Source: Microbacterium terregens (GTDB taxonomy: Bacteria > Actinomycetota > Actinomycetes > Actinomycetales > Microbacteriaceae). From it: a stretch of 64,000 nt of DNA. Below the pieces are notes generated by a model. It saw nothing but the letters and a program-made list of their open reading frames with translations, was not told where the DNA came from and did no database searches. Positions 35,168-60,421 of this stretch are shown piece after piece. The DNA lies in contig NZ_BAAAWH010000001.1 of NCBI RefSeq assembly GCF_039534975.1, positions 2,356,001 to 2,420,000 of the forward strand. The letters are read 5' to 3'. The number at the start of each line of letters is the position of its first letter. Within the stretch, counting starts at the first letter, position 1. A program made the translations under genes and the position numbers.

Positions 35168-35536
35168 TGGTGGAGATGGGGGGAATCGAACCCCCGTCCA
35201 TCGCTGTGTCTCTGCGCCTTCTACGGGCGTAGCCTGTGCAGACGTTCTACTCGGCCCCAACCTTTGCCACAGGCATCTAGGTCGACAGGCCCAGTCTGGA
35301 AAAAGTCCCGCGTGACGTCCAGACGCCGTCACGAAGCAAGTCCCCTAGATGACGCCAGGTTCCGTAGCGGGAACGCCTACGGTCTGACGGAGTTCAGGCT
35401 CGCTTATGCAGCGAGGGCGAACTCAGTGCGCTTAGTTTCGGCACTTGTAGTTTTGCAGAGATCGTTTACGAGATAACCCTGCATCCTCGGCCCGCTTCTC
35501 GCAGGAGCTCAGGCGATGTCGAAACCGATCATCCCC
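35168..35536 (-). ncRNA. ssrA: transfer-messenger RNA
   Basis: About 369 bases on the minus strand from GGGGATG at 35536. The 3' tRNA-like end has the T arm GGTTCGATTCC and an encoded CCA at 35170-35168; the acceptor GGGGATG pairs with CATCTCC with one G-U. The tag frame reads AETKRTEFALAA followed by TAA, with the usual actinobacterial FALAA end. It rescues stalled ribosomes and tags their peptides for proteolysis together with SmpB, encoded 6 kb away at 41386. Confidence 0.96.
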
Positions 35537-46677: not shown

Positions 46678-47067
46678 ATGCTGTTCGTGTTTCTCGCTCT
46701 GTACGTCGCTCTCGGCGTCGGGTGCATCGTCGTCGGGGTCACACGGCGCAAACGGTCAGCGGTGGTGTGCGGCATCAGCGCCGTGGCGATCGCGGCGGCG
46801 TCGTTGGTCGCGTGGATCCTCTACACCTCTGGCGCCACGCACTGGACGACCTCTGCGCTGCAGGCGCTGCTGTCGCCGATGCCCGAGTCGCTGGTCCAGC
46901 CCGGTTCGCTCGAACCCACCGGACGAGGCATCGGCGTTCCGGGCTTCGCCATCGCCGCGTTCGAGCTGGTCGTCTCCATCGTGATCTGGGCGATCCCGGT
47001 TCTGGGGATCGTGGCTGCCACGCGCGCACCGCGGGTCCGCTCGACGCCGCAGAGCGAGATGGTCTAG
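46678..47067 (+). CDS. hypothetical membrane protein
   Basis: 129 residues with three predicted transmembrane helices (about 2-20, 28-48, 90-115) and a short outside loop with TSGATHWTTSALQ. Strong ribosome site (GGAGGGG) and promoter, so it is a real gene. No recognised domain. Its last 4 bases overlap the end of the convergent pilus gene. Confidence 0.7.
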   Translation: MLFVFLALYVALGVGCIVVGVTRRKRSAVVCGISAVAIAAASLVAWILYTSGATHWTTSALQALLSPMPESLVQPGSLEPTGRGIGVPGFAIAAFELVVSIVIWAIPVLGIVAATRAPRVRSTPQSEMV

Positions 47068-47516
47068 CGCAACGCCGTTCGGCTGGTCGCCGTCGCCTCC
47101 AGCGCGACGCCGTCGGGCACGAACAGGGTGATCACCGGCGGCCGCCAGGTTCCGGCGACCGTCACCCGCGCCGACACGCCGTCGGGAGTCCCTGCGTCCA
47201 CCACCACGACGTCGCCGCCCAACTCGCCGACGACAGCCTCCGCCTGCTCGCGGACACCGTCAGCCGTCAACTCCGCTTTCGGCTCGTCTCCCTCGACCAG
47301 GAACGTGAAGCCGTCCGCGCCGGCGAGGGCTGCGGCATCGGCGAGCGCATCGAGCCGCTTCTGTGCGAGGTACAGGCTCGTCGCGTCCACGCAGATGAGG
47401 ACGACCACGATCGCCAGGACGGCGTAGCCGAGGGTCAGGATCAGGATGCTTCCCTCATCATCGGCGACCCGGGTCCGCAGCATCCGCACCGTCGGGGACT
47501 GCCGCCGCGCTCTCAT
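47064..47516 (-). CDS. TadG-like pilus-associated protein (Rv3654c type)
   Basis: 150 residues. Basic N-terminus, then DEGSILILTLGYAVLAIVVVLICVDATSLYLAQKRLDALADAAALAGADGF, the TadG/TadE-like transmembrane segment with the typical RLDALADAAALA helix. The C-terminal part is outside. In actinobacterial Tad loci this last small gene resembles Rv3654c-type proteins. It overlaps the TadE-like gene by 4 bases and is co-transcribed with it. Confidence 0.8.
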   Translation of the reverse strand: MRARRQSPTVRMLRTRVADDEGSILILTLGYAVLAIVVVLICVDATSLYLAQKRLDALADAAALAGADGFTFLVEGDEPKAELTADGVREQAEAVVGELGGDVVVVDAGTPDGVSARVTVAGTWRPPVITLFVPDGVALEATATSRTALR

Positions 47517-48028
47517 TCCGCCTCCCAGAAACGCGACACCTTCTGCACGGCGGATGCCTGAACCGGAATCGCCGCCAGTCGATCCAAGCCGAGCACGGGT
47601 GGCACCAGCGGCAGCGCGACGCTGGTGGTGAGGCTCACCACCAGCGTCGCGCCGGCTTGCGGGCACGCCGCGCCGGCCGGCCGGCACTCGATCGAAATGC
47701 GCACCGAGTCAGGATCCAGCGCGTATTCGTCGACCACGGACCGCAGGATCCGGTCCGCGCTCACGCGCGCATCATCCGCGTCCTCGGCGGTCGAGAGGGC
47801 GCGTGCGATGTGGCGGGCACCCGCCTCTGCGCCGAGGGACTGTCCTTGGATCAGGCCGAGCGAGACGATCAGGTACACGAGCGGCACGAGGAGCAGCATC
47901 CCGATCATGATGAATTCCAGCGCCGCCGACCCCCGGTCGTCGTCGCACGGCTCGACGGCCGCACCGCCCGTGCACGTCCCGCTGGGCGCGAAGCCCCGGG
48001 TGTCAGTCGAAGGACTCCGTCGGTGCAT
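47513..48028 (-). CDS. TadE-like pseudopilin
   Basis: 171 residues. A class III pilin-like segment DDRGSAALEFIMIGMLLLVPLVYLIVSLGLIQGQ at about 30-63 is followed by an outside domain with a cysteine pair (ECRPAGAACPQAG). TadE proteins are minor pseudopilins processed by a TadV peptidase; none is seen in the window. The 25-base overlap with the gene before it suggests coupled translation, though a later start is possible. Confidence 0.82.
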   Translation of the reverse strand: MHRRSPSTDTRGFAPSGTCTGGAAVEPCDDDRGSAALEFIMIGMLLLVPLVYLIVSLGLIQGQSLGAEAGARHIARALSTAEDADDARVSADRILRSVVDEYALDPDSVRISIECRPAGAACPQAGATLVVSLTTSVALPLVPPVLGLDRLAAIPVQASAVQKVSRFWEAE

Positions 48029-48428
48029 GCGCGCTCACCTCCATCATGCGGGGAAGGCCGAGCAGCCCGACGAGGGGCAGCGTCGTCCGGACGCTGATCC
48101 GCACCGCCGCTTGTCCGAGTTCGCTGGTCTCGCGCACCGCGATGTCTGCGGCGTAGTCGCTGCCGACCGTGCGGCTCACGATCTGCCGGGTCCGCTCGAT
48201 GCCCTCCTCCAGCGAGGTGTCGGCCAGAGCCGCGTGATACGCGCCCTCGACCGCGGCGTCGTGCACGACGTTGCGGACGTACACGGCGAGCCCGAACTGC
48301 ATCACCGCGAGCGTGAGCAGCGTCAGCAACGTGCCGACGAGGACGAACTCGACGGGGCTCGACCCGTGCTCGCCCGCCACCGCGGCGGCGAACCGGCGAC
48401 GGATGCCGCCGCCCCCGACTGCAGGCAC
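48003..48428 (-). CDS. TadE-like pseudopilin
   Basis: 141 residues from a GTG. The segment GEHGSSPVEFVLVGTLLTLLTLAVMQFGLAVYVRN (about 19-53) has the conserved Glu-Phe of pilin processing sites. The remaining part has HDAAVEGAYHAALAD and an amphipathic C-terminus. It follows the Flp-like gene by 3 bases. With its neighbours it forms the pilin part of the Tad locus. Confidence 0.83.
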   Translation of the reverse strand: MPAVGGGGIRRRFAAAVAGEHGSSPVEFVLVGTLLTLLTLAVMQFGLAVYVRNVVHDAAVEGAYHAALADTSLEEGIERTRQIVSRTVGSDYAADIAVRETSELGQAAVRISVRTTLPLVGLLGLPRMMEVSAHAPTESFD

Positions 48429-48653: not shown

Positions 48654-48739
48654 TCAGCCGATTCCGAGTCGAAGCATGAAGATCCCCGGAAAAACTGCGA
48701 ACAGCACGCTCAGGGGAAGGATGAGGAAGACGAGCGGGA
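48654..48739 (-). pseudogene. tadC: tadC 3' fragment, cut off by the mobile element
   Basis: The minus strand from the core reads LVFLILPLSVLFAVFPGI followed by FMLRLGIG and TGA at 48654. This is the last transmembrane segment of a TadC/GspF protein. There is no start codon before it other than an ATG near 48747 that lies in element sequence (that reading gives MLVP then the same residues). Joined to the fragment at 57567-58413 through the core TCCCGC it restores an in-frame protein of about 310 residues. In its present state the last 26 codons are separated from the gene. Confidence 0.9.
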
Positions 48740-48753
48740 CCAGCATTGGATAG
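48734..48753. other. left attachment site (attL)
   Basis: Core GCGGGA (48734-48739), then element arm ending ATTGGATAG (48745-48753). To the left is tadC coding sequence. The integrase -10 box follows immediately (48754-48759). Confidence 0.85.
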
Positions 48754-48759
48754 TAATCT
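48754..48759 (+). promoter_or_regulatory. -10 box of the integrase promoter, next to attL
   Basis: TAATCT, 6 bases, then the ATG at 48766, again leaderless in form. The -35 position (about 48731-48736) falls across the att core and host tadC sequence, so promoter strength may differ between the integrated and circular states. Confidence 0.5.
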
Positions 48760-48765
48760 TTATTC

Positions 48766-50250
48766 ATGAGCACAACACCCCCCGCCGGAGTCCCTCACCA
48801 CGGCCGCCACGCTCTGGGGACGGACGACCGCCTCATGCACGGCGTCATTTACGCGCGGATCAGCGACGACCCGACCGGCAAGGCGGCGGGTGTCGAACGC
48901 CAGACCGAGGAGTGCCGAACACTCGCTGAATCGCGCGGCGTCACCGTTGTCGAGGAACTGATCGACAACGACCTGAGCGCGACCAGCGGCAAGCGCCGCC
49001 CCAGCTTCGAGCGCGTCCTGGAACTGATCCGCTCCGACCTCATCGACACTGTCGTCATCTGGCACACAGACCGCCTGTACCGGCTCCCCCGCGACCTGGA
49101 GCCCCTCATCGAGCTGGCCGACACTCGCCCGCTGCGGTTCCTCACCGTCACAGCATCAGAGATCGACCTCAACACGTCATCCGGCCGCATGGTCGCGCGC
49201 ATTCTCGCCGCTGCCTCCGCTGCCGAGGTCGAGCACAAGGTGGAGCGGCAACGGTCCGCGTCCGACCAGCGGGCATCCCGCGGCACACCCACCGCCCGCC
49301 CCGGCTACGGCTACCGGCGCGTCGACGGTCGGGACGTCATCCACGAACCCGAGGGGGCGGTGATCCGCGAAGCAGCCCGCCGAGTCCTCGACGCCGAGTC
49401 CCTGCGTGCGATTGCCGCGGACTTCAACGCGCGCGCTATCCCCTCCCCCGCGGGGGCACCCTGGCAGGGCGTCACGCTTCGACAGCTCATCCGCCGCCCT
49501 TCACTTGCGGGGCTGCGCGTCCACCGCGGGCACGTCGTCGGAGAGTTTGACTTCGAGCTGCACCCGGCGATCCTCGACCGCAGCACCTACGACCGGCTGA
49601 CCGCCCTGTTCGACGACCCCACCCGCTCAGCCAGCAGTCGCGTCGGCCACCCTCCCAAGCACCTCCTGTCCGGAATCGCCTGGTGCGGACGGTGCGGCGC
49701 GACGCTCGGCGGGCGAATGGTCCGCCTTGCCCCGTGGACGCCGAAACCCGGGCAGAAGTCCAAGCCCGTAAAGGCCGCGTACGCTTGCGGCACCTGCCAC
49801 AAGGTGCGCCGCCTGCAGGCCCCCGTCGATGAGCTGGTAACGGAGTGGCTGCTGCAGCGACTGGAGCGCGACGATACCGCGGACCTGCTCACCACCGGCG
49901 ACCCCGAGGCGGTCCGGCAGGCCCGCGAAGCAGTAGATGCGGTCACGGCGCGTCTCGCGTCCGCTGCCGACCTGTTCGCCGCGGGCAGCATCGACGGCAA
50001 CCAGCTCGCAAGGATTACTGCCGCGGGTCGCGCCGAACGCGAGAAGCTCGAAACACGGCTCACAGCTGCCCTCCCGACGGTGCTCCCAAGCGGTGCGGTC
50101 GGGTCAGGGGCGCGGGCGGCGTGGGCAGACTTTGACATCCACCGTCGTCGCCTGATCATCTCGACGCTCATGCGGGTGACGATCTTGCCGACCGGACCGG
50201 GTCGCAGCTTCGATCCCGACTTGATCCGAGTGGACTGGCTGACTGCCTGA
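48766..50250 (+). CDS. int: large serine recombinase (integrase)
   Basis: 494 residues. Catalytic domain at about 25-170: the serine is in HGVIYARISDDPTGKA, with GVERQTEECR, DNDLSATSGKRRPSFERVL and HTDRLYRLPRDLEPLI. The recombinase domain follows (PGYGYRRVDGR ... IRRPSLAGLRVHRG), then a zinc ribbon (CGRCGATLGG and CGTCHKVR) and a coiled-coil-containing C-terminus. It should recombine attP with the tadC attB without host factors; excision needs a directionality factor. ATG chosen at 48766; an ATG at 48835 is also possible. Confidence 0.96.
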   Translation: MSTTPPAGVPHHGRHALGTDDRLMHGVIYARISDDPTGKAAGVERQTEECRTLAESRGVTVVEELIDNDLSATSGKRRPSFERVLELIRSDLIDTVVIWHTDRLYRLPRDLEPLIELADTRPLRFLTVTASEIDLNTSSGRMVARILAAASAAEVEHKVERQRSASDQRASRGTPTARPGYGYRRVDGRDVIHEPEGAVIREAARRVLDAESLRAIAADFNARAIPSPAGAPWQGVTLRQLIRRPSLAGLRVHRGHVVGEFDFELHPAILDRSTYDRLTALFDDPTRSASSRVGHPPKHLLSGIAWCGRCGATLGGRMVRLAPWTPKPGQKSKPVKAAYACGTCHKVRRLQAPVDELVTEWLLQRLERDDTADLLTTGDPEAVRQAREAVDAVTARLASAADLFAAGSIDGNQLARITAAGRAEREKLETRLTAALPTVLPSGAVGSGARAAWADFDIHRRRLIISTLMRVTILPTGPGRSFDPDLIRVDWLTA

Positions 50251-50371
50251 ACAGCATGGCGGCGATCTGAACCCGCCGCGACGGGCCCTGACTGTTCGTA
50301 CGGAGTTGCGAATAATGTGAGAAATGTGACACACTAAGTGTCGTAAAGTAGTGATAGTTATACCCAAGTAG
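50251..50371. promoter_or_regulatory. AT-rich region with a small inverted repeat
   Basis: GACAC (50328-50332) and GTGTC (50338-50342) form an inverted repeat with spacer ACTAA inside unusually AT-rich DNA (50295-50370). It could be an operator or a promoter for the RNA that follows; TATACC at about 50360 is a possible -10 box. No gene is visible. Confidence 0.4.
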
Positions 50372-50400
50372 AAGCCCTGGTCCACGGACCGGGGCTTTTT
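50372..50400 (+). terminator. Rho-independent terminator after the integrase
   Basis: AAGCCCTGGTCC pairs with GGACCGGGGCTT (one G-U pair) and is followed by a T tract (50396-50400). Confidence 0.85.
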
Positions 50401-50402
50401 GC

Positions 50403-50524
50403 TTGCCCACAACTGAACATGAACCAAGCCCCGTGACGGGGCGACACCCACCTTCCGGAGTCTCCCTGTCACCACGGGGGGACTCTGCCCAACCAGGGGC
50501 GCAGCTCACAGCTGCGCCCCTTTT
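50403..50524 (+). ncRNA. candidate structured RNA or leader with three hairpins
   Basis: Three hairpins follow one another: GCCCCG/CGGGGC at 50428-50442, a 9-bp stem GAGTCTCCC/GGGGGACTC at 50458-50484, and a perfect 11-bp stem GGGGCGCAGCT/AGCTGCGCCCC at 50496-50520 followed by TTTT. The last is a good terminator only 19 bases before the HTH gene start. This could be a small RNA, or a leader in which termination controls the HTH operon. No homologue known to me. Confidence 0.45.
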
Positions 50525-50542
50525 GCGTTAAGGAGCCAACGC

Positions 50543-50788
50543 ATGGAAGCATCCGCAGAGCCCCAGTGGGGATCGGTGGCAGAGGCCGCGCGCCATCTCG
50601 AAGTCAACCCCGCCACCGTGCGCCGCATGATCGACCGTGGCGACGTCTACGCCGAGCGCGTAGGCCCGCGCCTGATCCGCGTCGACCTCGCGAGCGTCAA
50701 GCGGCAGCCGCTCGGGCCCGCCGCACCGCGCACGATCAAGCGTTCCGAGTCCATTGACGAGCGCATTGTCGCAGGAGTGGACGAGTGA
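50543..50788 (+). CDS. helix-turn-helix protein, excisionase/MerR-like
   Basis: 81 residues. The winged helix segment is SVAEAARHLEVNPATVRRMIDRGDVYAERVGPRLIRVDLASV, as in excisionases and small phage regulators that read DNA helices. The C-terminus is basic and short. It may act as the recombination directionality factor for the integrase or as a regulator of the element. TAAGGAG lies 7 bases before the ATG, directly after the terminator hairpin. The next ORF overlaps its stop. Confidence 0.75.
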   Translation: MEASAEPQWGSVAEAARHLEVNPATVRRMIDRGDVYAERVGPRLIRVDLASVKRQPLGPAAPRTIKRSESIDERIVAGVDE

Positions 50789-50913
50789 GCGCCATCAGCC
50801 GCGAGACGATCGCCGAGCACGTCGCTCGCCGCATGGTCGAGAACCCGCCGCCGCCGCTCACGCCCGAGCAGAAGGCGAAGCTGCGGACGCTCCTTCGCGG
50901 AGGTGCCTCGTGA
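50785..50913 (+). CDS. small element protein, possible excision accessory
   Basis: 42 residues from a GTG that overlaps the HTH stop (GTGA): SAISRETIAEHVARRMVENP, then PPPLTPEQKAKLRTLLRGG. Two helices joined by a proline run. The tail pattern PPLTxEQxxxLxxLLR recurs in small proteins of actinobacterial phages and, from memory, in the phiRv1 excisionase. The overlaps on both sides and the pattern make it a real gene. Function unproven. Confidence 0.6.
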   Translation: MSAISRETIAEHVARRMVENPPPPLTPEQKAKLRTLLRGGAS

Positions 50914-51245
50914 ATGCCGAACGCCGCCCCAGAGGAGCGGCGCACGGGACTGCTGGGCGGCGGTCCTCCACGAGCGTATTCCAGCCCGTAGACATCCCCG
51001 GGTGCATCCGCGTAGATGTGTCCCGCCCGCAGCGCGGTGACAGCTTCGAGCTGGGCGAGGTCGGCCGACGCATCTATCGCGCCTGCGTCGGTATGCCGCC
51101 CGACGTCACACTCCAGCTGATCGTCGGACCCGAGACACCGCTCTACGACCCGCGCATCCCTCACGGCGTGAGGGTGCAGATCGTCGCCTCCGACGCTCAG
51201 ACTCTCATCCGCTGGCGCTCTGCAGCAGCGGAGGGCCGCGCATGA
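50910..51245 (+). CDS. hypothetical element protein
   Basis: 111 residues from a GTG overlapping the previous stop (GTGA). Basic N-terminus (NAERRPRGAAHGTAGRRSS), then a compact mixed region (VDIPGCIRVDVSRPQRGDSFELGEVGRRIYRAC and MPPDVTLQLIVGPETPLYDPRIPHGVRVQIV). Its stop overlaps the ATPase start (ATGA), so it is co-translated with the replication protein. No known domain recognised. Confidence 0.6.
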   Translation: MNAERRPRGAAHGTAGRRSSTSVFQPVDIPGCIRVDVSRPQRGDSFELGEVGRRIYRACVGMPPDVTLQLIVGPETPLYDPRIPHGVRVQIVASDAQTLIRWRSAAAEGRA

Positions 51246-52336
51246 CCTGGGAACCGATCGACCTGTCCGGAATCACGGACGAGGTAGCGGCCGGGATCGA
51301 CGGTCGCCCGGAGCCCGCACTGCTCACCCGCGAGGACGGGGCCGGACTGCTCTACCCCGGCATGGTCAATGGGCTGCACGGCGAATCCGGGTCCGGCAAG
51401 ACGTGGCTTGCACTGCACGCTTGCGCGCAGGAGATGCGGGCAGGGCACGCGGTCGCGTACATCGACCACGAAGGCGACCCGCGCAGCATCGTCGCACGGC
51501 TCATGGATCTGCAGGTGACCGCAGACCAGATCGTCCGACACTTCCGGTACTCCCAGCCTGAGACACCTTTCTCAGACGGGGCAGGCCTGCTTCTGACGGG
51601 CTTGCAGGACGAGGAGGTCCGATTGGTCGTCATCGACTCCACCGGCGAGGGCCTGGCGCTTGCAGGCGCGAAACCGAACGCAGATGACGAGGTCGCCCGC
51701 TGGTTCCGGGAGGTGCCTCGCCGGATCGCGGATCACGGCCCCAGCGTTCTGCTGCTGGACCACTCGGCGAAGGCCGCGGGCGGAGAGCTGTGGCCGATCG
51801 GGTCACAGCGGAAGCGGGCCGCGGTAAACGGTGCTCAGTACTACATCGAGACGCTGTCGCCGTTCGGGCGGGACCGCCCTGGTGCCGCGAAACTCGTCTG
51901 CGCGAAAGACCGGCACGGGCGGTACATCGTGGGACAGCAGGTCGCTACCCTGCACGTCACGCCGGGCGACCGCCTCCGCATCACGCTTGCTGCCCCGGAG
52001 CCAACCGAGCGTGCCGATCACGGTGGATTCCGTCCCACGATGCTCATGGAGCGAATCAGCAGCCTGCTGGAACGAGAAGGAGCGCTGTCAAGCGCCCGCA
52101 TCGAACAGTCGGTGACTGGGCGGCGGGAAGTCGTGCGTCGTGCGTTGACGCTCCTCGTGGATGAAGGGAACGTGACCCGCTCGCATGGCGCTCGTGGGGC
52201 GCTGGTGCACACGCTGTCCCGACCCTTCACCACCTCGCCCCGAACGCGGGGCGAGGTCATCAACGGCGACCTCGACTGGCCGGTCACGGCCGGGGCGAGG
52301 TCGAACGTCGAGGAACCCCCGAATCACATGGACTAG
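51242..52336 (+). CDS. RepA/RecA-like ATPase, putative replication helicase
   Basis: 364 residues. Walker A is HGESGSGKTWLAL (about residues 44-56), Walker B-like VRLVVIDSTGEGLAL, and DHGPSVLLLDHSAKAA for the sensor region; the fold is the AAA_25/RepA hexameric helicase type. The C-terminal third (RMLMERISSLLEREGALS, RREVVRRALTLLVDEGNVTR) looks like a winged helix for DNA binding. Such proteins start replication of plasmids, phages and satellites. CCTCGCC repeats begin inside its 3' end and continue beyond it, a typical place for an origin. Confidence 0.8.
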   Translation: MTWEPIDLSGITDEVAAGIDGRPEPALLTREDGAGLLYPGMVNGLHGESGSGKTWLALHACAQEMRAGHAVAYIDHEGDPRSIVARLMDLQVTADQIVRHFRYSQPETPFSDGAGLLLTGLQDEEVRLVVIDSTGEGLALAGAKPNADDEVARWFREVPRRIADHGPSVLLLDHSAKAAGGELWPIGSQRKRAAVNGAQYYIETLSPFGRDRPGAAKLVCAKDRHGRYIVGQQVATLHVTPGDRLRITLAAPEPTERADHGGFRPTMLMERISSLLEREGALSSARIEQSVTGRREVVRRALTLLVDEGNVTRSHGARGALVHTLSRPFTTSPRTRGEVINGDLDWPVTAGARSNVEEPPNHMD

Positions 52337-52433
52337 GGCGACCTCGCCCACCTCGCCCCACCTCGCCCAACCTCGCCCCGGGCGACGTCACCACGACCTC
52401 GCCCCTCGCCCCACCCCTTAAGGGGGGGCGAGG
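52233..52433. repeat. CCTCGCC iteron-like repeats, candidate replication origin
   Basis: CCTCGCC occurs in direct orientation at 52233, 52342, 52351, 52361, 52371, 52397 and 52404, and inverted (GGCGAGG) at 52250, 52294 and 52427. Four direct copies are spaced 9-10 bases apart, about one helical turn, and inverted pairs form hairpins (52233-52256 and 52404-52433). The block 52337-52506 has no gene. Iterons next to a RepA-like gene suggest the origin. The repeats could also bind a regulator. Confidence 0.55.
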
Positions 52434-52506
52434 TGGGCGATGTGCCCGCCCCGCAGCCCGCCAAACCAGCATCCGCAACCACCCGTCCGACCCGATAGGA
52501 GACACC

Positions 52507-52851
52507 ATGAACCTTCAGCGCGACCTCCGCCTCACCTACGATCACGCCCACGGCGCGGTCTACCTGAACGTCGAACGCAGACGCCGTCGCGGCCGTAACC
52601 GCGGCCGATACCATGCCCCGCTCGAACGGATCGCTCGCGGCGACCTCCGTGCATTGTGCGACCTGCTCCATGACTACGCCGACCAGCTCGACCGCCACGA
52701 CAGGGAACTTGGCGCAGCAAGCCCCAGGGGTAAGGGGGTTCACGCTTCCACAACCCCCGCGCAGCGCCACCCGCCTCGCAGTGAATCCTCCCTCCCCGGA
52801 GGGGGTACCCCATCACGCGCGCACGCGCGCGAGGCGGTGGCCCGTGGCTGA
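52507..52851 (+). CDS. hypothetical basic protein of the element
   Basis: 114 residues. N-terminal half ordered (LQRDLRLTYDHAHGAVYLNVERRRRRGRNRGRYHAPLERIARGDLRALCDLLHDYADQLDRH), C-terminal half low-complexity and probably disordered (SPRGKGVHASTTPAQRHPPR). AGGAG lies 7 bases before the ATG. No family recognised. Its stop overlaps the next gene's start. Confidence 0.55.
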   Translation: MNLQRDLRLTYDHAHGAVYLNVERRRRRGRNRGRYHAPLERIARGDLRALCDLLHDYADQLDRHDRELGAASPRGKGVHASTTPAQRHPPRSESSLPGGGTPSRAHAREAVARG

Positions 52852-53095
52852 CGTGAAGCAGGTCGCAGGGCGGCTGATCTACGCCGCCGCCGATCAGGAC
52901 ATGGGACAGGTGCTCGACGCGCTGCGCGGGTTCGCCCCCTGCGGGAACGTGGCGCTGATCCTCGCCCTCGCGGACACCGCAGCCGCGGCACTGGAGGAGC
53001 TGCACGGCGAGGACTGGCGAGATGCGCTGAACATGGCGATGCTCGCCGCCAGCGTGGAGGAGGTGGACGGTGGAGCAGCCGAGTTGGGACGATGA
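52844..53095 (+). CDS. hypothetical small helical protein
   Basis: 83 residues from a GTG at 52844 inside the end of the previous gene. Mostly helical and acidic: VKQVAGRLIYAAADQDMGQVLDALRGFAPCGNVALILALADTAAAALEELHGEDWRDALNMAMLAASVEE. The overlap chain with both neighbours marks one operon. No function seen. Confidence 0.55.
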   Translation: MADVKQVAGRLIYAAADQDMGQVLDALRGFAPCGNVALILALADTAAAALEELHGEDWRDALNMAMLAASVEEVDGGAAELGR

Positions 53096-53438
53096 CGCCG
53101 TCGCGTGGAGGCGGTTCGCTGGTGGGCTGCGTGAGCGAATGGGCGAAGCAAACCGGCGTGCGGCTGACGCAGAGGCACGCGCGCTCGATGCGGAGGAGCG
53201 CGCAGCTCTTGCCGAGGCTGAGGCAGACCGCCTCACACGGCGGTCAAAGCGCAGCAGGTGGCAGCTGACCCGGTTGGAGAAATTGCTTGCGGAAGGCGAT
53301 GTGGCGGCCGCTGTCGACCTCCTGGCCTACCGCCGCGCCGGAATCCGCTCCATCGGAGGCCGCCATTCAACGCCTGACTGTCGGCTTGTGGGCGGAGATG
53401 CGGCCCTCCGCGGCGTGACGCTACGGTCGAAAGCATGA
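53070..53438 (+). CDS. hypothetical coiled-coil protein
   Basis: 122 residues from a GTG with GGAGGAGG upstream. A long Ala/Glu/Arg heptad-like helix (GEANRRAADAEARALDAEERAALAEAEADRLTRRSKRSRWQLTRLEKLLAEGDV, residues about 25-78) predicts a coiled coil. In a small capsid-carrying element a coiled-coil protein may be a scaffold or size-determining factor, but there is no direct evidence. Overlaps both neighbours. Confidence 0.55.
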   Translation: MEQPSWDDDAVAWRRFAGGLRERMGEANRRAADAEARALDAEERAALAEAEADRLTRRSKRSRWQLTRLEKLLAEGDVAAAVDLLAYRRAGIRSIGGRHSTPDCRLVGGDAALRGVTLRSKA

Positions 53439-54073
53439 ACCGTGCAGCCAAGATCGCCCTCGGCGTATCCGGTCTGACCGTCGCCGGCCTGATCGCGCTC
53501 GCCGCCGTGCCGATGATCGCGAGCGCCGAGTCACCGACCACGGAGGCGACCCGCGAGGCCGTGTCCACACCGACGCCGACACCGACGCCGGTCGAGCCGA
53601 CGGCGACACCGGCACCCGAGCCCGCCGGGACGCAGTCGACCGAGCAGTGCACCTTCCCGCTCGCCTACGACGGCCTGTCTGTGGGCGTCAGCCTCATGGA
53701 CGGGGTTGTGCTGCACGACCACGGCGCGCAGCCCGGCGCGACTGGGCAGACGGTCCTCGACGGTAGCGGTGACCCGGCCGCATACGTCGTCGCGGACGGC
53801 GACACGCAGACCGGCATCGAGGCGCGGTTCTGCGCGGCTCCCGGCTACCTCAGCCTGCTCAACAGCGTCCGTCGCACGGACGTGTACGTGGAGCCCCAGA
53901 CGGTCGAGGGCTACGTGTGGCCCGACCCGTTCCCGGAGGGCACCGGCTGGATCATGGACCTGTACGCGGGCGACACCCTGAACCTCAACCCGCACACGGT
54001 CCTCACCGTGGGCGACCAGGAGGGCGTCGTGTACCAGCATGAACCGGACGTCCAGATGCCCGAGCAGTGGTGA
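53435..54073 (+). CDS. secreted or membrane-tethered protein of the element
   Basis: 212 residues. An N-terminal hydrophobic helix (ALGVSGLTVAGLIALAAVPMIASA) is a signal peptide or anchor. A Thr/Pro linker (TPTPTPTPVEPTATPAPEPAG) leads to a domain with two cysteines (EQCTFPLAYDGLSV and ARFCAAPGY), probably one disulfide. No known domain. The ATG overlaps the previous stop. A terminator follows, so it ends the operon. An outside-facing protein carried by a mobile element could alter phage adsorption; this is inference. Confidence 0.6.
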   Translation: MNRAAKIALGVSGLTVAGLIALAAVPMIASAESPTTEATREAVSTPTPTPTPVEPTATPAPEPAGTQSTEQCTFPLAYDGLSVGVSLMDGVVLHDHGAQPGATGQTVLDGSGDPAAYVVADGDTQTGIEARFCAAPGYLSLLNSVRRTDVYVEPQTVEGYVWPDPFPEGTGWIMDLYAGDTLNLNPHTVLTVGDQEGVVYQHEPDVQMPEQW

Positions 54074-54099
54074 CCGCCACCGCCTAGACCACGCGCGCC

Positions 54100-54135
54100 G
54101 AACGGCCCCGCCTCCACACGGAGACGGGGCCGTTC
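54100..54135 (+). terminator. terminator after the secreted-protein gene
   Basis: GAACGGCCCCG (54100-54110) pairs perfectly with CGGGGCCGTTC (54125-54135), loop 14. No long T tract, but the stem is strong and ends the first operon of the element. Confidence 0.75.
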
Positions 54136-54554
54136 CGCGCGCACCAACGAACCAGGAGGACAGCGCAGTGCAGTGGCCCGTCTCACCCGCAACTGCGCAG
54201 TGTTGGGTCGACTCCCCCTGTGTCGGCGCGTCGTGTTAATGTCTGGGCACGCCTTCGGGACGTGTCGGGTGAAGAACGAGGAGCCTTCGGGCCAAGTTCG
54301 AGCGGTCGACATGGGACGGGGCGAGTGAAGACCGGCGGTCAAGCCGGGCGCAGCGGCGAGGTGCTTCGAAACCTCCCCCGTCAGCGCCTGCAGCGTCAGC
54401 CCGACCCGTCCGAGCGCAACGTCACCAGCGGTCATCCGGCGAGACCCGCGAGGGTAAGCCGACCTGCCCGCCTCTGTGGTGCCGTGCTCACATTCACCGG
54501 CCCGGCAGGCGCTTCGCACAGCGCCCACGGCCACACACCACTAGGAGTAGCCCA
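54136..54554. other. 420-base non-coding block before the capsid gene
   Basis: No frame here shows a domain or a ribosome site. It holds a direct repeat GCCTTCGGG (54251-54259 and 54283-54291), the complementary strings GACGGGG (near 54312) and CCCCGTC (near 54377), and the stem GAGGT/ACCTC around 54359-54376. TTAATGT at about 54234 may be a -10 element. It should contain the capsid promoter and could hold a packaging site, since the element has no terminase of its own. The packaging idea is inference. Confidence 0.4.
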
Positions 54555-55757
54555 GTGAACCTCAAGGAACAGCTCAAGTCCCTGCAGACGTCGATGCAGG
54601 GCATCGTGGACGGCGCGAAGGAGGCGCACCGCGACCTGACGGACCCGGAAATGTCCACCCTCGAAGCGAAGGCCGCAGAAGCCGTCGAACTGAAGGCCAA
54701 GATCGAGCGCGCGGAGAAGTCCGCCGAGCTGCTGGAACGCATCGGCGGGCAGAAGTACGACGCCTACGACATGGACGGCAACCCGGTCGAGTCCAACACC
54801 GGCAACCGCTGGGCACAGAAGGCCGTCGACGGCCTCTCCCTCCTCGCCCGGAGCGCGGGCGGGGTGAAGTCCCTCACTTCCGGGTCCGTGTCCGTTCCGG
54901 CGATCCTGTCGCCGGTGCTGATCGACACCCGACCGCGCACGCTGCTCGACCTGATCCCGGTCCTGGACCCGCGCCAGAGCAACGGCTCGATCAGCCGCCC
55001 CGACCAGAACGACGAGCTCGGCTTCATCGGTCGCCCGTCGATCGGTCGCACCGGCAACGGGTTCTCGTTCATCCGCCAGAACGTGCGCACCAACAACGCC
55101 GGGGCCGTCCCTGACGGCGGCGCGAAGCCGACCTCGCAGTACACCTTCGGACAGGTGGATGACACCTACCGCGTGTACGCGAACAAGACCGAGCACCTGC
55201 CCTGGCGCTACCTGGACGACTTCCGCGACCTCGTGGACATCGTCAGCGTGCAGCTGCGCGAGGACACGCTGGCCGCGATCGAGGCCGACGTGCTCTCCGG
55301 AGACGGCGAGGAGGACCGGTTCACCGGCATCCTGGAGACCTCCGGCATCCAGTCGCAGGCGTTCACCACCGACCTGCTCACCACCCTGTCGACGGCAAAG
55401 TACAAGCTGCTCGCGCAGGACCGGAAGCTCACCGGGTGGGCCTTCAATCCGTTCGACCTGCAGGCGCTGGAGATGCTGCGCGAGAACGGCAGCACAGGCG
55501 CGTTCCTGTTCAAGTCCCGCGCCGAGATCGAGGACTTCCTCGCCGCACCGATCGTGACCTCCCTGGGCCTTCCCACCGGTGAGGCTATCGCCGCCGACTG
55601 GAACCAGTCCGAGCTGCTCCCCCTCGGGGATGACGAGCTGGTCTTCGACGGCAAGAAGCGCACCGACGACAACACATTCCTGCTCATGTTCGAAGGCCGC
55701 TACGGCTTCCGCGTCAAGAAGCCCTTCGACTTCGTCAAGGTGAGCCTCAGCGCCTAG
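54555..55757 (+). CDS. HK97-type phage major capsid protein
   Basis: 400 residues. Residues 1-70 are a charged helix (LKEQLKSLQTSMQGIVDGAKE, LEAKAAEAVELKAKIERAEKS) like the delta or scaffold domain of HK97. The capsid fold follows: VSVPAILSPVLIDTRPRTLLDLIPVL, the E-loop region with NGFSFIRQNVRTNNAGAVPDGGAKP, then DFRDLVDIVSVQLREDTLAAIEADVLSGDG and the C-terminal LLMFEGRYGFRVKKPFDFVKVSL. The start is a GTG with TAGGAG upstream. No protease, portal or terminase is encoded near it, so assembly would need a helper phage. It is a transcription unit of its own, followed by a strong terminator. Confidence 0.93.
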   Translation: MNLKEQLKSLQTSMQGIVDGAKEAHRDLTDPEMSTLEAKAAEAVELKAKIERAEKSAELLERIGGQKYDAYDMDGNPVESNTGNRWAQKAVDGLSLLARSAGGVKSLTSGSVSVPAILSPVLIDTRPRTLLDLIPVLDPRQSNGSISRPDQNDELGFIGRPSIGRTGNGFSFIRQNVRTNNAGAVPDGGAKPTSQYTFGQVDDTYRVYANKTEHLPWRYLDDFRDLVDIVSVQLREDTLAAIEADVLSGDGEEDRFTGILETSGIQSQAFTTDLLTTLSTAKYKLLAQDRKLTGWAFNPFDLQALEMLRENGSTGAFLFKSRAEIEDFLAAPIVTSLGLPTGEAIAADWNQSELLPLGDDELVFDGKKRTDDNTFLLMFEGRYGFRVKKPFDFVKVSLSA

Positions 55758-55775
55758 CCTGAACCGTAAAGACAC

Positions 55776-55810
55776 GGCCGTCCGCTTTCCAAATGGGAGC
55801 GGACGGCCGT
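55776..55810 (+). terminator. terminator of the capsid gene
   Basis: CGGCCGTCCGCT (55776-55787) and AGCGGACGGCCG (55799-55810) form a perfect 12-bp stem with an 11-base loop, followed by TCTTCG. Confidence 0.85.
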
Positions 55811-55937
55811 CTTCGTCGCCCGATCTTGCTGGCCTGCGTCGCGCAACCGCTCATGGCTGCCGCGCGGCGGCAATCCTCCGTCCGCGCGCCGGGGCGCCAG
55901 CCGAAGGCGCAAGGGTGCCCTGTGTTACATTTCGACC

Positions 55938-57056
55938 ATGAGCGCAGGGACGGAGCGGTTCGGCACTTTTGTGCTTGACGGCCCGCGATTCGGCGCGAGG
56001 GGCGTGCCAGTTGAGGCGCTGGAAGAACTGGTCGTCTATCGAGAGATTGTGGTTGACGTCGCCCGCCAGTTGTACTTGAGGGACCACCCGGACCGAGAAC
56101 GGTCGCTTAGGAACCTCGACAAGAAGCTGGACCTTCGTTTGCTCGAGGTGAAGGAGGGAAGTGCTGACCTTCTCCTGACACGTGCCACCGCTGATGACGA
56201 GCTCGCAGGCGACGATGGCCGGCCCATCTCCGACTTGCTGGAGGAGAGCCGCGACCTCGTAACCGAAGCGATTCGCAACGTGTCGAAGGCGTACGAACTC
56301 CCAGCCCGGTTCCCGAGGAAGTCCCTTCCTCGCTTTCGAGCGTTCGGTCGCTCCCTCTCCCGCGCCGACACACTTCGCGTCGGCGACCTAAACGGGAACA
56401 CCGCGACCTACACGGAGAGTGTGCGGTCAAGGTTTCTCGACCTCATCGCAGACAACTCGCGGGCCGTCCGTCAAGAAATTTCCGGGCGCATAGTGGAGTT
56501 GGATCCGGAGCGTTCTATCTTCCATTTGCGAACCGCCGAGGACTACCGTGTTCCCGGTTTCTATGGGGTTTCGGACGTCAGCATTCCGAGTATTTGGCTT
56601 GTGGATGAGTCGGGCGAGGGCCCGCTCGTGAGCGTTATCGGTTCGGCTCTCGTAAGTGACGACGGCGAGATTCAGCGGTTCCTTTCCGTTGATCAGGTGC
56701 GTCCCGCTGGACTGGAAAACCTGCTTGACAGCGTCGATCGTCTGCGTGCTCTGCAGGACGGGTGGATGGGTGCAGAGAGCGTCGCTATCCTGCCCGAAGC
56801 CATTGACTTCGCATACAAGGCACTCCAAAGGCTGCAAAGCGTGCCAGCCGGAATCTCTCCCGCACCCTTGCCGGATGGCGGAGTCCGCCTCGAGTGGACC
56901 CGCGACGGAATCGACTTCGTGGTCGAGATCGAGGCCGACGGTGGCCTTTACCTGTGCAGGCTTGGAGCCGATTCGGTCAGCGACGCCGATCGCCAGCTCG
57001 ATAGCTATGACGATCGCGCGCTCATCGATTTCTTCCAGGGGGTGCTAAGTGAGTGA
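55938..57056 (+). CDS. unknown protein, first gene of the right-end cassette
   Basis: 372 residues, acidic, without signal or membrane helix. Helical N-terminal part (VEALEELVVYREIVVDVARQLYLRDHPDRERSLRNLDKKLDLRLLEVKEGSADLLLTRA) and a C-terminal domain with LRALQDGWMGAESVAILPEAIDFAYKALQRL, then PAPLPDGGVRLEWTRDGIDFVVEIEADGGLYLC. I have the impression that this GW-G ... PDGGVxLEW ... EIExDG pattern recurs in uncharacterised two-gene loci, but I know no function. Codon use is less G+C-biased than the host. A start at 55938 (ATG) has no strong ribosome site. Confidence 0.6.
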   Translation: MSAGTERFGTFVLDGPRFGARGVPVEALEELVVYREIVVDVARQLYLRDHPDRERSLRNLDKKLDLRLLEVKEGSADLLLTRATADDELAGDDGRPISDLLEESRDLVTEAIRNVSKAYELPARFPRKSLPRFRAFGRSLSRADTLRVGDLNGNTATYTESVRSRFLDLIADNSRAVRQEISGRIVELDPERSIFHLRTAEDYRVPGFYGVSDVSIPSIWLVDESGEGPLVSVIGSALVSDDGEIQRFLSVDQVRPAGLENLLDSVDRLRALQDGWMGAESVAILPEAIDFAYKALQRLQSVPAGISPAPLPDGGVRLEWTRDGIDFVVEIEADGGLYLCRLGADSVSDADRQLDSYDDRALIDFFQGVLSE

Positions 57057-57489
57057 TGAGGTTCTTCCGCTCGGTATCCCGCGCCTGACCGCGCCCGACG
57101 ACGTGCTTCTACGGAATGTCATTCCTCAATGGACGAATGAAGACGAGACGCCCAAGTCGGTCGCCTTCAGGCCCACGCCGAAGGACGAGGATCACTTATC
57201 GACGGACTACGGAATCAGTGCGGCAGATGCGTTTGCCAGTTATAAGAAGCGGGTCGGACACGCGCCCGAGGGGACGTGGGGTCTCGGTGTCGGTGCCATC
57301 CTGGAGTGTCATGAGGAGATCGAAGTCCTGAAGGACGGCGGCACAGGCGACCTGCCTGACTCCCACGCCTCAATCGTGTTCCCGGCAGCTGGTGACTCGA
57401 AGACGGCGTCACGAAAGGTTCACGAGCGCATCGCGAGGGACCTGAAGGCGGAAGCTATCAGGCGCAAGCGACAGCACCCTCCTGCCTAG
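57049..57489 (+). CDS. unknown protein, second gene of the right-end cassette
   Basis: 146 residues, overlapping the first cassette gene by 8 bases (coupled). Acidic N-terminus, with DDVLLRNVIPQWTNEDETPKSVAFRPTPKDEDHLSTDYGISAADAF and a basic C-terminal helix (ASRKVHERIARDLKAEAIRRKRQ). No known domain. The pair ends 58 bases before attR, the usual place for cargo such as anti-phage or toxin-antitoxin genes. That role is only a hypothesis. Confidence 0.6.
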   Translation: MSDEVLPLGIPRLTAPDDVLLRNVIPQWTNEDETPKSVAFRPTPKDEDHLSTDYGISAADAFASYKKRVGHAPEGTWGLGVGAILECHEEIEVLKDGGTGDLPDSHASIVFPAAGDSKTASRKVHERIARDLKAEAIRRKRQHPPA

Positions 57490-57546
57490 CCGGCGCGGGC
57501 AACTCGTCCTTAGATCTGCCGCCGGGGGCCACCTCTCGCAGTATGC

Positions 57547-57566
57547 CTATCCAATACTGCGCGGGA
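57547..57566. other. right attachment site (attR)
   Basis: Element arm CTATCCAAT (57547-57555), then core GCGGGA (57561-57566), then tadC coding sequence. Together with attL it rebuilds an attP with 9-bp inverted arms 16 bases apart and an intact tadC attB. Confidence 0.85.
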
Positions 57567-58413
57567 TGAGCATGTAGATCTCTTTGCGCCCTGCACGCTC
57601 GATGAGTCCGCGTTTGGCGTCCTCACGCGCATCGAGCGCTTGGGAGTGCAGGACGTGCGCGAGGGGGGCGCCACGATCGATCGCTGCGACGAGCTGGTCG
57701 ATGCTGCGCGCGAGCGCGGGGATCTCGAGTCGCGCCGCGAGCCTGCTCAGCGCTTCGGAGAGCGGCGATCCGGTGCCGACGGCGAGCACGACGCCGCGCA
57801 GTTCCGCGGCCAGCTCGCCCACGCCCGCGACGCTCACCCGGCGGAGAGAATCGAGGATGCCCTCGCCCGCGGAAAGGCACAGTGCCAGGAACTCCAGCAC
57901 CGTCGGCAGCTCCTCCTGGATGCGCCCGACGCGAACTCGCGCCGCCCGCGTGAGCCGCGCGTCGTAGAGGAAGGCGGCCGTCACGCCGACCACGGGCGGC
58001 AGGAGAGCGACGGTGCCGGACGCACGACCCAGGAGGATGAGGACGACCACGCCTCCCCCGCCGATAGCGACGCCGGCGATGGACCACGCGAGCTGTCGGC
58101 CGCGGAAGGCCGTCGCATCCATCGTCCACCCCGCCTGGTGAAGACGCCGGTCGACCGAGGCGGACCCGCCCGCGATGCGCGCCACACGGCTCCGCAGCCC
58201 TTGCCACAGCTCGCCGAGCGCGGCGCCGCGCGGGTCGAAACTCGGTGTCAGGCCGCGCGGGTCGGTCACGTCGCGGATGTACGGCGCGATCCGCCGGGCC
58301 AGCGAAGGCGCGCCCCACCGCGGTGCGAGCGAGAAGAGCAAGCAGACGCCGAGGCCGAAGGCGCCGCCGAGCACGACCGCGAACGCGATATCGGTGCCGC
58401 CCCACGGGCTCAC
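57547..58413 (-). pseudogene. tadC: tadC 5' portion, truncated by the mobile element
   Basis: The frame from a GTG at 58413 runs 288 codons to a TAG at 57547. The GspF-like domain is present (VLEFLALCLSAGEGILDSLRRV, LSEALSRLAARLEIPALARSIDQLVAAIDRGAPLAHVL, RAGRKEIYMLIP), but the last four residues (RSIG) come from the element. The terminal transmembrane helix is lost. TadC is the second membrane platform protein of Tad pili, so pilus assembly is probably blocked or altered while the element is integrated. The start overlaps tadB (GTGA). Confidence 0.92.
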
Positions 58414-59267
58414 CCGAACCACCGCCGCGGCTCGGGCAGACGGCCGATGCGCAGCATCACGCGGTACGCCACGAACGACACCGCCGCCCCGGCCAGGATG
58501 AGGGCGACGCCCTCCGGACTGCTGTACGCCCGCGCACCCTCGGGTCGCATCGCAAGGAGCGCGAGGATCACCCACGGCGCCGCGACGCCGAGCACGGCCG
58601 CGCCGCGGATCCACGACTGCCGCGACTCGACCTCGGCACGCAGCGCGGCATCCGCGCGGACCGAGGCGGCGAGGGCGCGCAGCACCGGGGTCAGTTCGGT
58701 GCCGCCGACCTGACGTGCCATCCGGAGTGTCTCGACGATCCGATCGCCGACCGGATCCGCGAGCGCGTGCTTGAGCCGCTGGGCGCTCGAGTCGAAATGC
58801 CCGGATGCCGCGACGTCGCGGGCGAAGCCCGCGAACGGCGGTCGAAGCGGGGCGGGAGCGGACTCGGCGAGGCTGGCGACAGCATCCGGAAGGGACATCC
58901 CGGCGCGCATGGACGCGATGAGCAGATCGCAGACGTCCGGCCAGAGAGCGCGACGCGAACGCATCAGGCGCGACCGGCGCGCGCGCAGCCACGCGAACGG
59001 CGCCAGGCCGCCCACGACAGCCGCGACCAGGACGAAAGCTCCGACCTGCGTGAACAGCCACGCGGCCGCGGCGAGCAGGGCCGCGCAGCCGGCGGATGCC
59101 GCGATCGCTCCGGCGGGCGGGACCCGCACGAGACCTGCCGACTCGAGCAGGCGCGCGAGGTGGCCGGATGCCGGGACCCTGGGCGCGAGCGCACGGGACG
59201 GCCAGACCCACGGCGAGACGAGGAGCAGGATGCCGGCGGCGAGGACGGCGCCCCAGACGAACGTCAC
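58410..59267 (-). CDS. tadB: Tad pilus platform protein (type II secretion F family)
   Basis: 285 residues. Two hydrophobic segments near the N-terminus, a GspF domain (RRALWPDVCDLLIASMRAGMSLPDAVASLAESAP, LADPVGDRIVETLRMARQVGGTELTPVLRALA) and two C-terminal helices ending RVMLRIGRLPEPRRW. It works with TadC and the ATPase TadA to assemble Flp pili. GTG start at 59267 overlaps the tadA stop by 4 bases. Confidence 0.92.
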   Translation of the reverse strand: MTFVWGAVLAAGILLLVSPWVWPSRALAPRVPASGHLARLLESAGLVRVPPAGAIAASAGCAALLAAAAWLFTQVGAFVLVAAVVGGLAPFAWLRARRSRLMRSRRALWPDVCDLLIASMRAGMSLPDAVASLAESAPAPLRPPFAGFARDVAASGHFDSSAQRLKHALADPVGDRIVETLRMARQVGGTELTPVLRALAASVRADAALRAEVESRQSWIRGAAVLGVAAPWVILALLAMRPEGARAYSSPEGVALILAGAAVSFVAYRVMLRIGRLPEPRRWFG

Positions 59268-60421
59268 GACGGCTCCGCACGGTACACCGTGGCCGCCTCG
59301 ACCGCCCCGCCCACGACACCGGTCGGCTCGACGATTTCCACGACCCGGCGTCGGCCGGAAGCGTCTCGCTCGCAGTGGGCGACCAGATCGACGGATGCCG
59401 CGACCGCGGGCAGCACGAATCCGGAGTCGATGTTGCGCCCGGCCAGCAGCGGCAGTGCGGCGAGCTTGGCGAGGGCCTCACGTGCCGAGTTCGCATGAAT
59501 GGTCGCAGCACCGGGGACCCCGGTGTTCAGCGCCAGCAGAAGATCGAGCGCTTCGGCATCGCGCACCTCGCCGACGACGAGCCGATCGGGGCGCATGCGC
59601 AGCGCCTCCTTGACCAGACGGCGCAGGCTCACCTCCCCGGTACCCTCCAGACTCGGCTGCCGGCCCTGCAGAGCGACCAGGTCAGCGGCGTCGACGGCCA
59701 ACTCGAACGTCTCCTCGACCGTCACGATCCGATGCTGCGGCGGGCATGCGGCGATCAACGCGCTCAGCAGCGTGGTCTTGCCGGCGTGCGTGGCTCCAGA
59801 GATCAGGATGCTGCGTCCGGTCTCCATCGCCCGCCGCAGCACCCGCGCGGCGGCGGGCGCGATGGAGCCGACTTCGACCAGCCGCTCGAGGTCCCGATAG
59901 GCGGGCAGGAACTTGCGGACGTTCACCGACCAGTGTCGGCGCGTGATATCGGGGATCACGACGTGCAGCCGACTGCCGTCCGGAAGCGAAGCATCGACGA
60001 ACGGCTGACTCAGGTCTACTCGGCGGCCGGTGGCATGCAGCATCCGTTCGACGAGATCTCGCACCGCGGCATCCGTCAACGCCAGCGGCACGCGTTCGGC
60101 GACGCCCCCTCGGGCGATGAAGATGCGATCCGGGGCGTTGATCCACAGCTCCTCGACGTTCGGGTCATCGAGGTAGGGCTGGAGGGGTCCGTATCCGGCC
60201 ACCGCGGCGAGCACCTCGCGGACGCACGAGGCCTCGTCATCGACCGGGGCGAGTCCGCGGGCGAGGGCGAAATCGTTGTGGCGACGCACCTCGGCGCGGG
60301 CGATGCGTGCGGCCGACTCGGGGTCCCGAGCGGGGTCGGTCAGTTCGGCCCGCAGCCGGTCGCGCACGCGCTCGGCCACAACCGCAGCGGCGGTGCCGGC
60401 GGGAGCGTACGCGAGAGTCAC
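59264..60421 (-). CDS. tadA: Tad pilus assembly ATPase, CpaF/TadA family
   Basis: 385 residues. Type IV/II secretion ATPase: an N-terminal domain with GYGPLQPYLDDPNVEELWINAPDRIFIARGG, Walker A SGATHAGKTTLLSALI, the Asp box IVTVEETFEL, Walker B-like RPDRLVVGEVRDAEALDLL and the His box GAATIHANSAREAL. The Walker A Thr-His in place of Gly-Gly is a mild variant. It drives pilus extension, and in some actinobacteria Tad-type systems support DNA uptake. First gene of the locus; start GTG at 60421. Confidence 0.94.
   Translation of the reverse strand: MTLAYAPAGTAAAVVAERVRDRLRAELTDPARDPESAARIARAEVRRHNDFALARGLAPVDDEASCVREVLAAVAGYGPLQPYLDDPNVEELWINAPDRIFIARGGVAERVPLALTDAAVRDLVERMLHATGRRVDLSQPFVDASLPDGSRLHVVIPDITRRHWSVNVRKFLPAYRDLERLVEVGSIAPAAARVLRRAMETGRSILISGATHAGKTTLLSALIAACPPQHRIVTVEETFELAVDAADLVALQGRQPSLEGTGEVSLRRLVKEALRMRPDRLVVGEVRDAEALDLLLALNTGVPGAATIHANSAREALAKLAALPLLAGRNIDSGFVLPAVAASVDLVAHCERDASGRRRVVEIVEPTGVVGGAVEAATVYRAEPS

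Follow-up and report, generated by a model that had tools for sequence, protein, structure and literature searches.

A satellite-like element in the tadC gene of Microbacterium terregens and recurrent serine-integrase insertions at Tad pilus genes

In a 64,000-nucleotide stretch of the Microbacterium terregens genome (RefSeq assembly GCF_039534975.1, contig NZ_BAAAWH010000001.1, positions 2,356,001 to 2,420,000; referred to below as the window), an 8,827-bp element interrupts tadC, a gene of the locus for the Tad/Flp pilus. Integration of this element into tadC is near certain, and insertions at the same codon recur in several genera. On balance, we think it probable that this satellite-like element was inserted into a proline codon of tadC by its large serine recombinase (LSR; also called integrase here) through a GG-centred exchange between the attachment sites of the element (attP) and of the host (attB), and that it blocks natural transformation. 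Sequence comparison establishes its ends, the dinucleotide common to the insertions, the corresponding site in intact relatives, the existence of circular relatives and the recurrence across genera; the benefit of preventing transformation is likely by analogy with known systems.

We propose that the LSR inserts the element into one conserved codon, which would strip TadC of its end, separate the downstream flp and tadE/F/G genes from tadA, tadB and tadC and stop pilus assembly. The pilus would be off while the element is integrated, and exact excision would turn it on again. If these actinobacteria take up DNA through the Tad/Flp pilus, the element would block natural transformation; because transformation could replace the element with an empty allele, blocking it would benefit the element. 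Mobile elements have been reported to break competence genes and to gain thereby (PMC4774983), and DNA competence genes are strongly over-represented among LSR targets (PMC10083194). Transformation of Micrococcus luteus was abolished by deleting any tad open reading frame other than tadB, whose deletion lowered it more than 100-fold (PMC4322843). The chances seem to us evenly balanced for a broader statement, namely that Tad/Flp is the main uptake pilus of actinobacteria and that several LSR lineages independently target its genes, making their hosts non-transformable, with excision restoring piliation.

Ends of the element and recurrence at one codon of tadC

An initial annotation of the window had described the two tadC halves as split by the element, and joining the flanks indeed gives an open frame in which EIYMLIP is followed by LVFLILPLS. 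As a result of the insertion, TadC of the host loses 26 C-terminal residues and gains RSIG before a stop codon. The reconstruction of attP in that annotation also stands: once the ends are joined, CTATCCAAT and ATTGGATAG stand as 9-bp inverted arms to the left and right of 16 bases centred on the core. Chance was rejected as the origin of these arms: an inverted run of at least nine bases about the core centre arose in 15 of 200,000 arm shuffles. Two claims need narrowing. The repeat GCGGGA is present at both ends, but only its GG is common to every insertion, and the six-base ‘core’ is partly a product of chance; the near-perfect arms are true of this copy, but other copies, although symmetric, are less so. 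This integrase is predicted to recombine the rebuilt attP with the rebuilt attB.

The symmetry is a property of the lineage. For the 17 rebuilt attPs of clade A (integrases 36–75% identical to that of the window), taking GG as the centre gives 201 matches in 425 positions, compared with 95–129 at centres 1–10 bases off, and re-pairing the arms of the 17 copies never reached 201 matches (0 of 5,000). These sites have imperfect inverted symmetry about a short crossover, and their junctions have only a short core in common.

An uninterrupted tadC with a matching site, which the annotation had named as a check, was found in Microbacterium species other than that of the window. The rebuilt attB matches the nearest intact tadC (G003) at 49 of 54 bases and has a median of 44 of 54 over 28 loci, whereas the rebuilt attP has a median of 15 matches to the same sites. 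Proline occupies the insertion codon in 28 of 28 intact tadC loci among L003–L031; a more distant intact tadC (L072) has valine. We did not use the presence of CC at the intact sites (28 of 28) as a test, because the motif used to find the site already requires proline.

We surveyed 149 Microbacterium genomes, of which 128 have a tadC match and 47 a relative of the integrase, and more widely 366 genomes, with tadC in 316–317. At least 20 Microbacterium genomes are cut at this site (G000, G002, G019, G034, G036, G037, G051, G069, G136, G144, G161, G184, G226, G228, G244, G255, G305, G330, G333 and G361), 17 with both junctions, including the 453-bp remnant in G019, and three (G036, G037 and G333) with one, and in the surveyed cut genomes tadC is interrupted at one Pro–Leu boundary. 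Outside Microbacterium, both tadC halves were found in two Agrococcus genomes, one Glutamicibacter and one Arthrobacter, which brings the both-junction set to 21 insertions in four genera. In all 21, both junctions contain the CC of a single proline codon, which reads GG on the forward strand, and no other position is common to all of them; in a 20-insertion set, CC is common to 20 and any other position to at most 15. GG is therefore the likely exchange dinucleotide. As the third base of the codon may come from the element, a two-base core that rests on the invariant bases of proline would allow the site to be used across species.

Clade A integrases at tadC come from Microbacterium, Cryobacterium, Agrococcus, Plantibacter, Glutamicibacter, Arthrobacter and Glaciihabitans. 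Of 38 genome loci listed, the first 15 include 14 with a tadC half beside the integrase; in the remaining 23, no tadC half was found at the integrase with the queries used. The clade A integrase gene of G002 and G244 is at the opposite end of the element. A second lineage, clade B (G226, G228, G330 and G037), uses the same tadC site with the integrase gene reversed and is 28% identical to clade A over 231 residues. Its three rebuilt attPs are asymmetric about GG (2, 6 and 6 of 25), so that their GG core is read from the shared bases alone. In a tree of 58 integrases, the tadC sequences fall on one side of a branch, opposite clade B. Nocardioides and Nesterenkonia sequences, as well as four of unknown site, lie within the tadC side, and two of the three Nocardioides and Nesterenkonia sequences are located in tadA; given these other sites, we do not claim strict specificity for one site.

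For the three genomes with one junction, the evidence is uneven. In G037, the tail junction was read and the head was placed by position only. By eye, the head-side arms in G333 and G036 are of clade A and clade B type; both were counted as cut but not as junction pairs, as neither tail nor integrase was found within approximately 78 kb (G333: L078, L091, L138 and L139; G036: L086, L093, L136 and L137). We read these two as very large or rearranged insertions. G203 was excluded from the counts: its tadC is cut further downstream and no LSR was found. In Cryobacterium flavum (L104), 5.6 kb separate the tadC tail from the LSR.

The reconstruction of attP is supported by a natural site. Three contigs in IMG/VR (L132, L157 and L134) have 127-bp terminal repeats, indicating circles of 8–11 kb, and encode LSRs. 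The intact site in L134 (10,977 bp; integrase 43% identical, no tadC match) agrees with the rebuilt attP of the G361 element at 37 of 50 positions and with that of G136 at 34 of 50, and the base beside GG is the one predicted for exchange at GG. The junction in L132 is asymmetric about GG (7 of 30) and was not used as proof of the attP of the window.

Insertions elsewhere in tad and com genes

Separate LSR insertion places in tad genes number six: the tadC codon, three regions of tadA and two positions in the Flp pilin gene. The first tadA region, near residue 91, is cut by LSR elements in G133 (halves approximately 11.5 kb apart) and G021 (approximately 44.6 kb), and tadA of two Nocardioides genomes is cut near residue 97, at or near the same place. 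The second, near residue 215, is cut in G138 and G026, where the LSR was found next to the C-terminal half alone; we take this region to be about that of the Walker A motif. The third is near residue 300 in G141, where both halves were seen. The Flp pilin gene is cut in G147 and G037 (both halves) and G090 (head only), and at another position in G039 (both halves); the genes cut in G147, G037 and G039 are counterparts of the Flp pilin-like gene of the window.

Three further cases were not counted as proven splits: G071, in which 59.7 kb of sequence yielded no N-terminal part of tadA; G033, in which the LSR lies approximately 1 kb upstream of tadA; and G143, in which only the pilin head was found. 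A replacement tadC tail supplied by the element was considered and ruled out for five loci whose tadC is intact and has an LSR nearby; each has only one good tail, and the gene actually cut is tadA (G138, G026 and G141) or the flp pilin gene (G147 and G090).

Some of these loci are of interest in themselves. The G021 insertion (L176, L184 and L185; residue ~92) has an LSR at one end and a size that fits a prophage. In the Nocardioides genomes (G366 and G367; L168–L171), tadA is in three pieces approximately 11–12.5 kb apart, and each inner junction has an LSR match. G037 (L155) has two insertions: its tadC holds a clade B element, and the neighbouring Flp pilin gene holds another LSR element, which includes a capsid gene.

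The other conspicuous targets are competence genes. Eight of 45 LSR loci, from Microbacterium and Leucobacter (L045, L047, L055, L056, L058, L061, L121 and L128), abut or split the genes for ComM (five), ComEC (one) or DprA (two), and ComM halves flank the LSR on both sides in G017, G020, G029 and G040. A census with PF07508 gave 138 LSR hits in 72 of the 149 Microbacterium genomes. Within 16 kb of tadC there are 18 of these hits, near comM 15 and near comEC 4 (37 different hits together), where even placement in a 3.6-Mb genome would give approximately 1.2 per gene. When the seven clade A copies are left out, 9 of 118 hits are still found no more than 5 kb from tadC, against an expectation of 0.33; three of the nine are not proven splits. 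The Tad locus is thus targeted about as often as comM in Microbacterium, which provides indirect genomic evidence for a role of Tad in transformation beyond Micrococcus luteus. More generally, the split gene suggests a testable rule: LSR landing places would mark the DNA-uptake machinery.

The same pattern might have arisen if tadC, tadA, flp and comM were simply conserved, dispensable genes that integrases recognise, the loss of the pilus giving the element nothing. The common dinucleotide corresponds to the two invariant bases of a conserved proline codon and would make a good cross-species anchor, and LSRs are known to converge on one conserved position within a prolyl isomerase gene (PMC10083194). 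We nevertheless consider such neutral landing unlikely, although it is the strongest of the alternatives, because several LSRs use six places in one pilus locus and the other large class of targets is competence genes.

Weight of the transformation-blocking interpretation

Several observations weigh against a block to transformation or against the counts that point to it. The need for tadC in transformation has been reported in Micrococcus luteus only, and polar effects of the tad deletions were not excluded in that work (PMC4322843). The host genome of the window has one tadC match and encodes ComEC and DprA, but these two are widespread and occur in most control genomes too, so their presence says little. 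No same-species genome lacking the element was found. Differences in the tadC tail comprise 92 synonymous and 29 replacement changes in cut genomes (16 real comparisons), compared with 124 and 23 in intact ones, a somewhat larger share of replacements in the cut tails. Proximity to comEC taken alone is weak (4 of 138, P 0.035), and 101 of the 138 LSR hits are near none of tadC, comM and comEC. The proximity counts also include unproven neighbours (G071, G033, G143, G144:C24:173007 and probably G093, G067, G041 and G080) and fragment hits (G029 and G040, twice each). Related insertions were counted separately and even placement was assumed, which makes the P values approximate; a safer argument is that tad genes are hit at six separate places. 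Finally, the satellite label is weak, as a single capsid gene underlies it.

Element insertion into DNA-uptake genes has precedents. Competence-gene insertions are known in comYC, comM, comFA and radC (PMC4774983), and the element of the window resembles these in its site-specific insertion within a probable DNA-uptake gene, at an orthologous site across species. It differs in that its target is the Tad/Flp pilus; tad, Flp and Micrococcus are absent from the main text of that paper. The LSR elements of another study (PMC10083194) share with it a core dinucleotide, the convergence of distant LSRs on one gene site and the enrichment of competence genes; there, the magnesium chelatase gene is the target of 12.4% of the predicted site-specific LSRs. 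Pilus, secretion and Microbacterium are absent from its main text, although its supplementary target lists may include tad genes. A literature search confined to main texts and largely to open papers listed none that describes a Tad gene serving as attB. As an attachment site, tadC would appear to be a new class of target, used by elements of a known type. Insertion that splits a gene and exact excision that restores it also recall the skin element in sigK and Sa3int in hlb; those are reversible gene-splitting prophages, whereas excision of the tadC element is predicted. The survey also yields attP/attB pairs for 21 insertions, rebuilt around a GG core at a single conserved codon and drawn from two distant integrase lineages.

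Gene content and relatives of the element

Ten reading frames of the element were scanned with Pfam, PHROGs and PADLOC (Table 1). The serine integrase that the initial annotation had placed at the left end is borne out by its Resolvase and Recombinase matches; together with a zinc ribbon (20.9 bits, below the cut-off of 25.3) and its position at the end, these are the features of an LSR element. No match to a terminase, portal or protease was found in the ten frames, and a comparison with 50,697 phage records at an E cut-off of 1e-5 gave no match to the candidate defence protein PDC-M32A. As a small integrative element with phage-like genes and, in these frames, less than a full virion set, it resembles phage satellites, including phage-inducible chromosomal islands (PICIs), capsid-forming PICIs and Mulch/Flayer elements (PMC10690885), which likewise combine small size, an integrase, a helix-turn-helix protein, a replication-type ATPase, a capsid and defence-type cargo. 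Capsid-forming PICIs have their own capsid, protease, portal and terminases (PMC10690885), whereas here only the major capsid protein was matched.

Of 7,996 candidates scored in a search with the capsid protein, 109, counting the query itself, reached E ≤1e-10. Among the 20 top-ranking proteins, four have an organism name, and all four are Microbacterium; in a comparison with phages, the phage capsid proteins among the 20 records listed of 139 are 25–29% identical to that of the element. A relative at E 1e-15 occurs in 9 of 198 genomes of the genus, and relatives are also present in the tadC elements of G255 and G144. Two of the circular metagenome contigs, L132 (8,963 bp) and L157 (8,293 bp), encode capsid relatives, and ten frames scanned from the two, one of them the capsid gene, gave no match to a terminase or portal. 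The capsid-bearing elements may represent one family of capsid-only satellites, some of which are found as circles in metagenomes. Two small regions (L149 and L151) have a lone related HK97 capsid gene and, by eye, a tyrosine integrase, a regulator and a helix-turn-helix gene.

The candidate defence pair and the phage-like genes would also suit an element that shuts off the Tad pilus as a phage receptor, against competing phages. We regard this as improbable: comM, comEC and dprA are also targeted, and their products are not surface receptors; a literature search on the Tad pilus, phage receptors and Actinobacteria found no paper, which is a weak point. Still less probable is a decayed prophage lodged in tadC with neither excision nor role, for although a single head gene was recognised and G019 (L077) has a 453-bp remnant at the same site with no integrase match, the integrase frame of the window is open and keeps the N-terminal residues conserved in its relatives, both attP arms are present, 17 of 17 tadC tails read are open and related circles exist.

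Table 1 Features of the element and of the surrounding Tad locus (window positions)
Feature	Position	Strand	Basis
Tad/TadG-like gene	47064–47687	−	PF13400
TadE-like gene	47513–48028	−	19.5 bits, under Pfam cut-off
tadE	48003–48428	−	
Flp pilin-like gene, 67 aa	48432–48635	−	Position, size, conservation; no Pfam/NCBIfam family
tadC tail, last 26 codons and stop	48654–48734	−	Sequence
Likely crossover dinucleotide GG, left junction (start of element)	48736–48737		Inside 6-bp repeat GCGGGA, 48734–48739
attP arm ATTGGATAG	48745–48753	+	Sequence
Large serine integrase, 494 aa	48766–50250	+	Resolvase 1e-26, Recombinase 2e-10
Small helix-turn-helix protein, candidate excisionase/directionality factor	50543–50788	+	Weak, ~1e-5
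AAA/RecA-like ATPase, probably replication	51242–52336	+	Profile scans
212-aa protein, no family	53435–54073	+	Hydrophobic N terminus judged by eye
HK97-type phage major capsid protein	54555–55757	+	Sole structural phage gene recognised in ten frames
Candidate phage-defence protein PDC-M32A	55938–57056	+	1e-54
Candidate phage-defence protein PDC-M32B	57049–57489	+	4e-16
attP arm CTATCCAAT	57547–57555	+	Sequence
Likely crossover dinucleotide GG, right junction (end of element)	57563–57564		Inside 6-bp repeat GCGGGA, 57561–57566
tadC main part (T2SSF)	57567–58413	−	Pfam-type match
tadB (T2SSF)	58410–59267	−	
tadA/CpaF-type ATPase (T2SSE)	59264–60421	−	Best NCBIfam is TadA family, under cut-off

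Elsewhere in the window, an ordinary tmRNA gene is located at 35168–35536.

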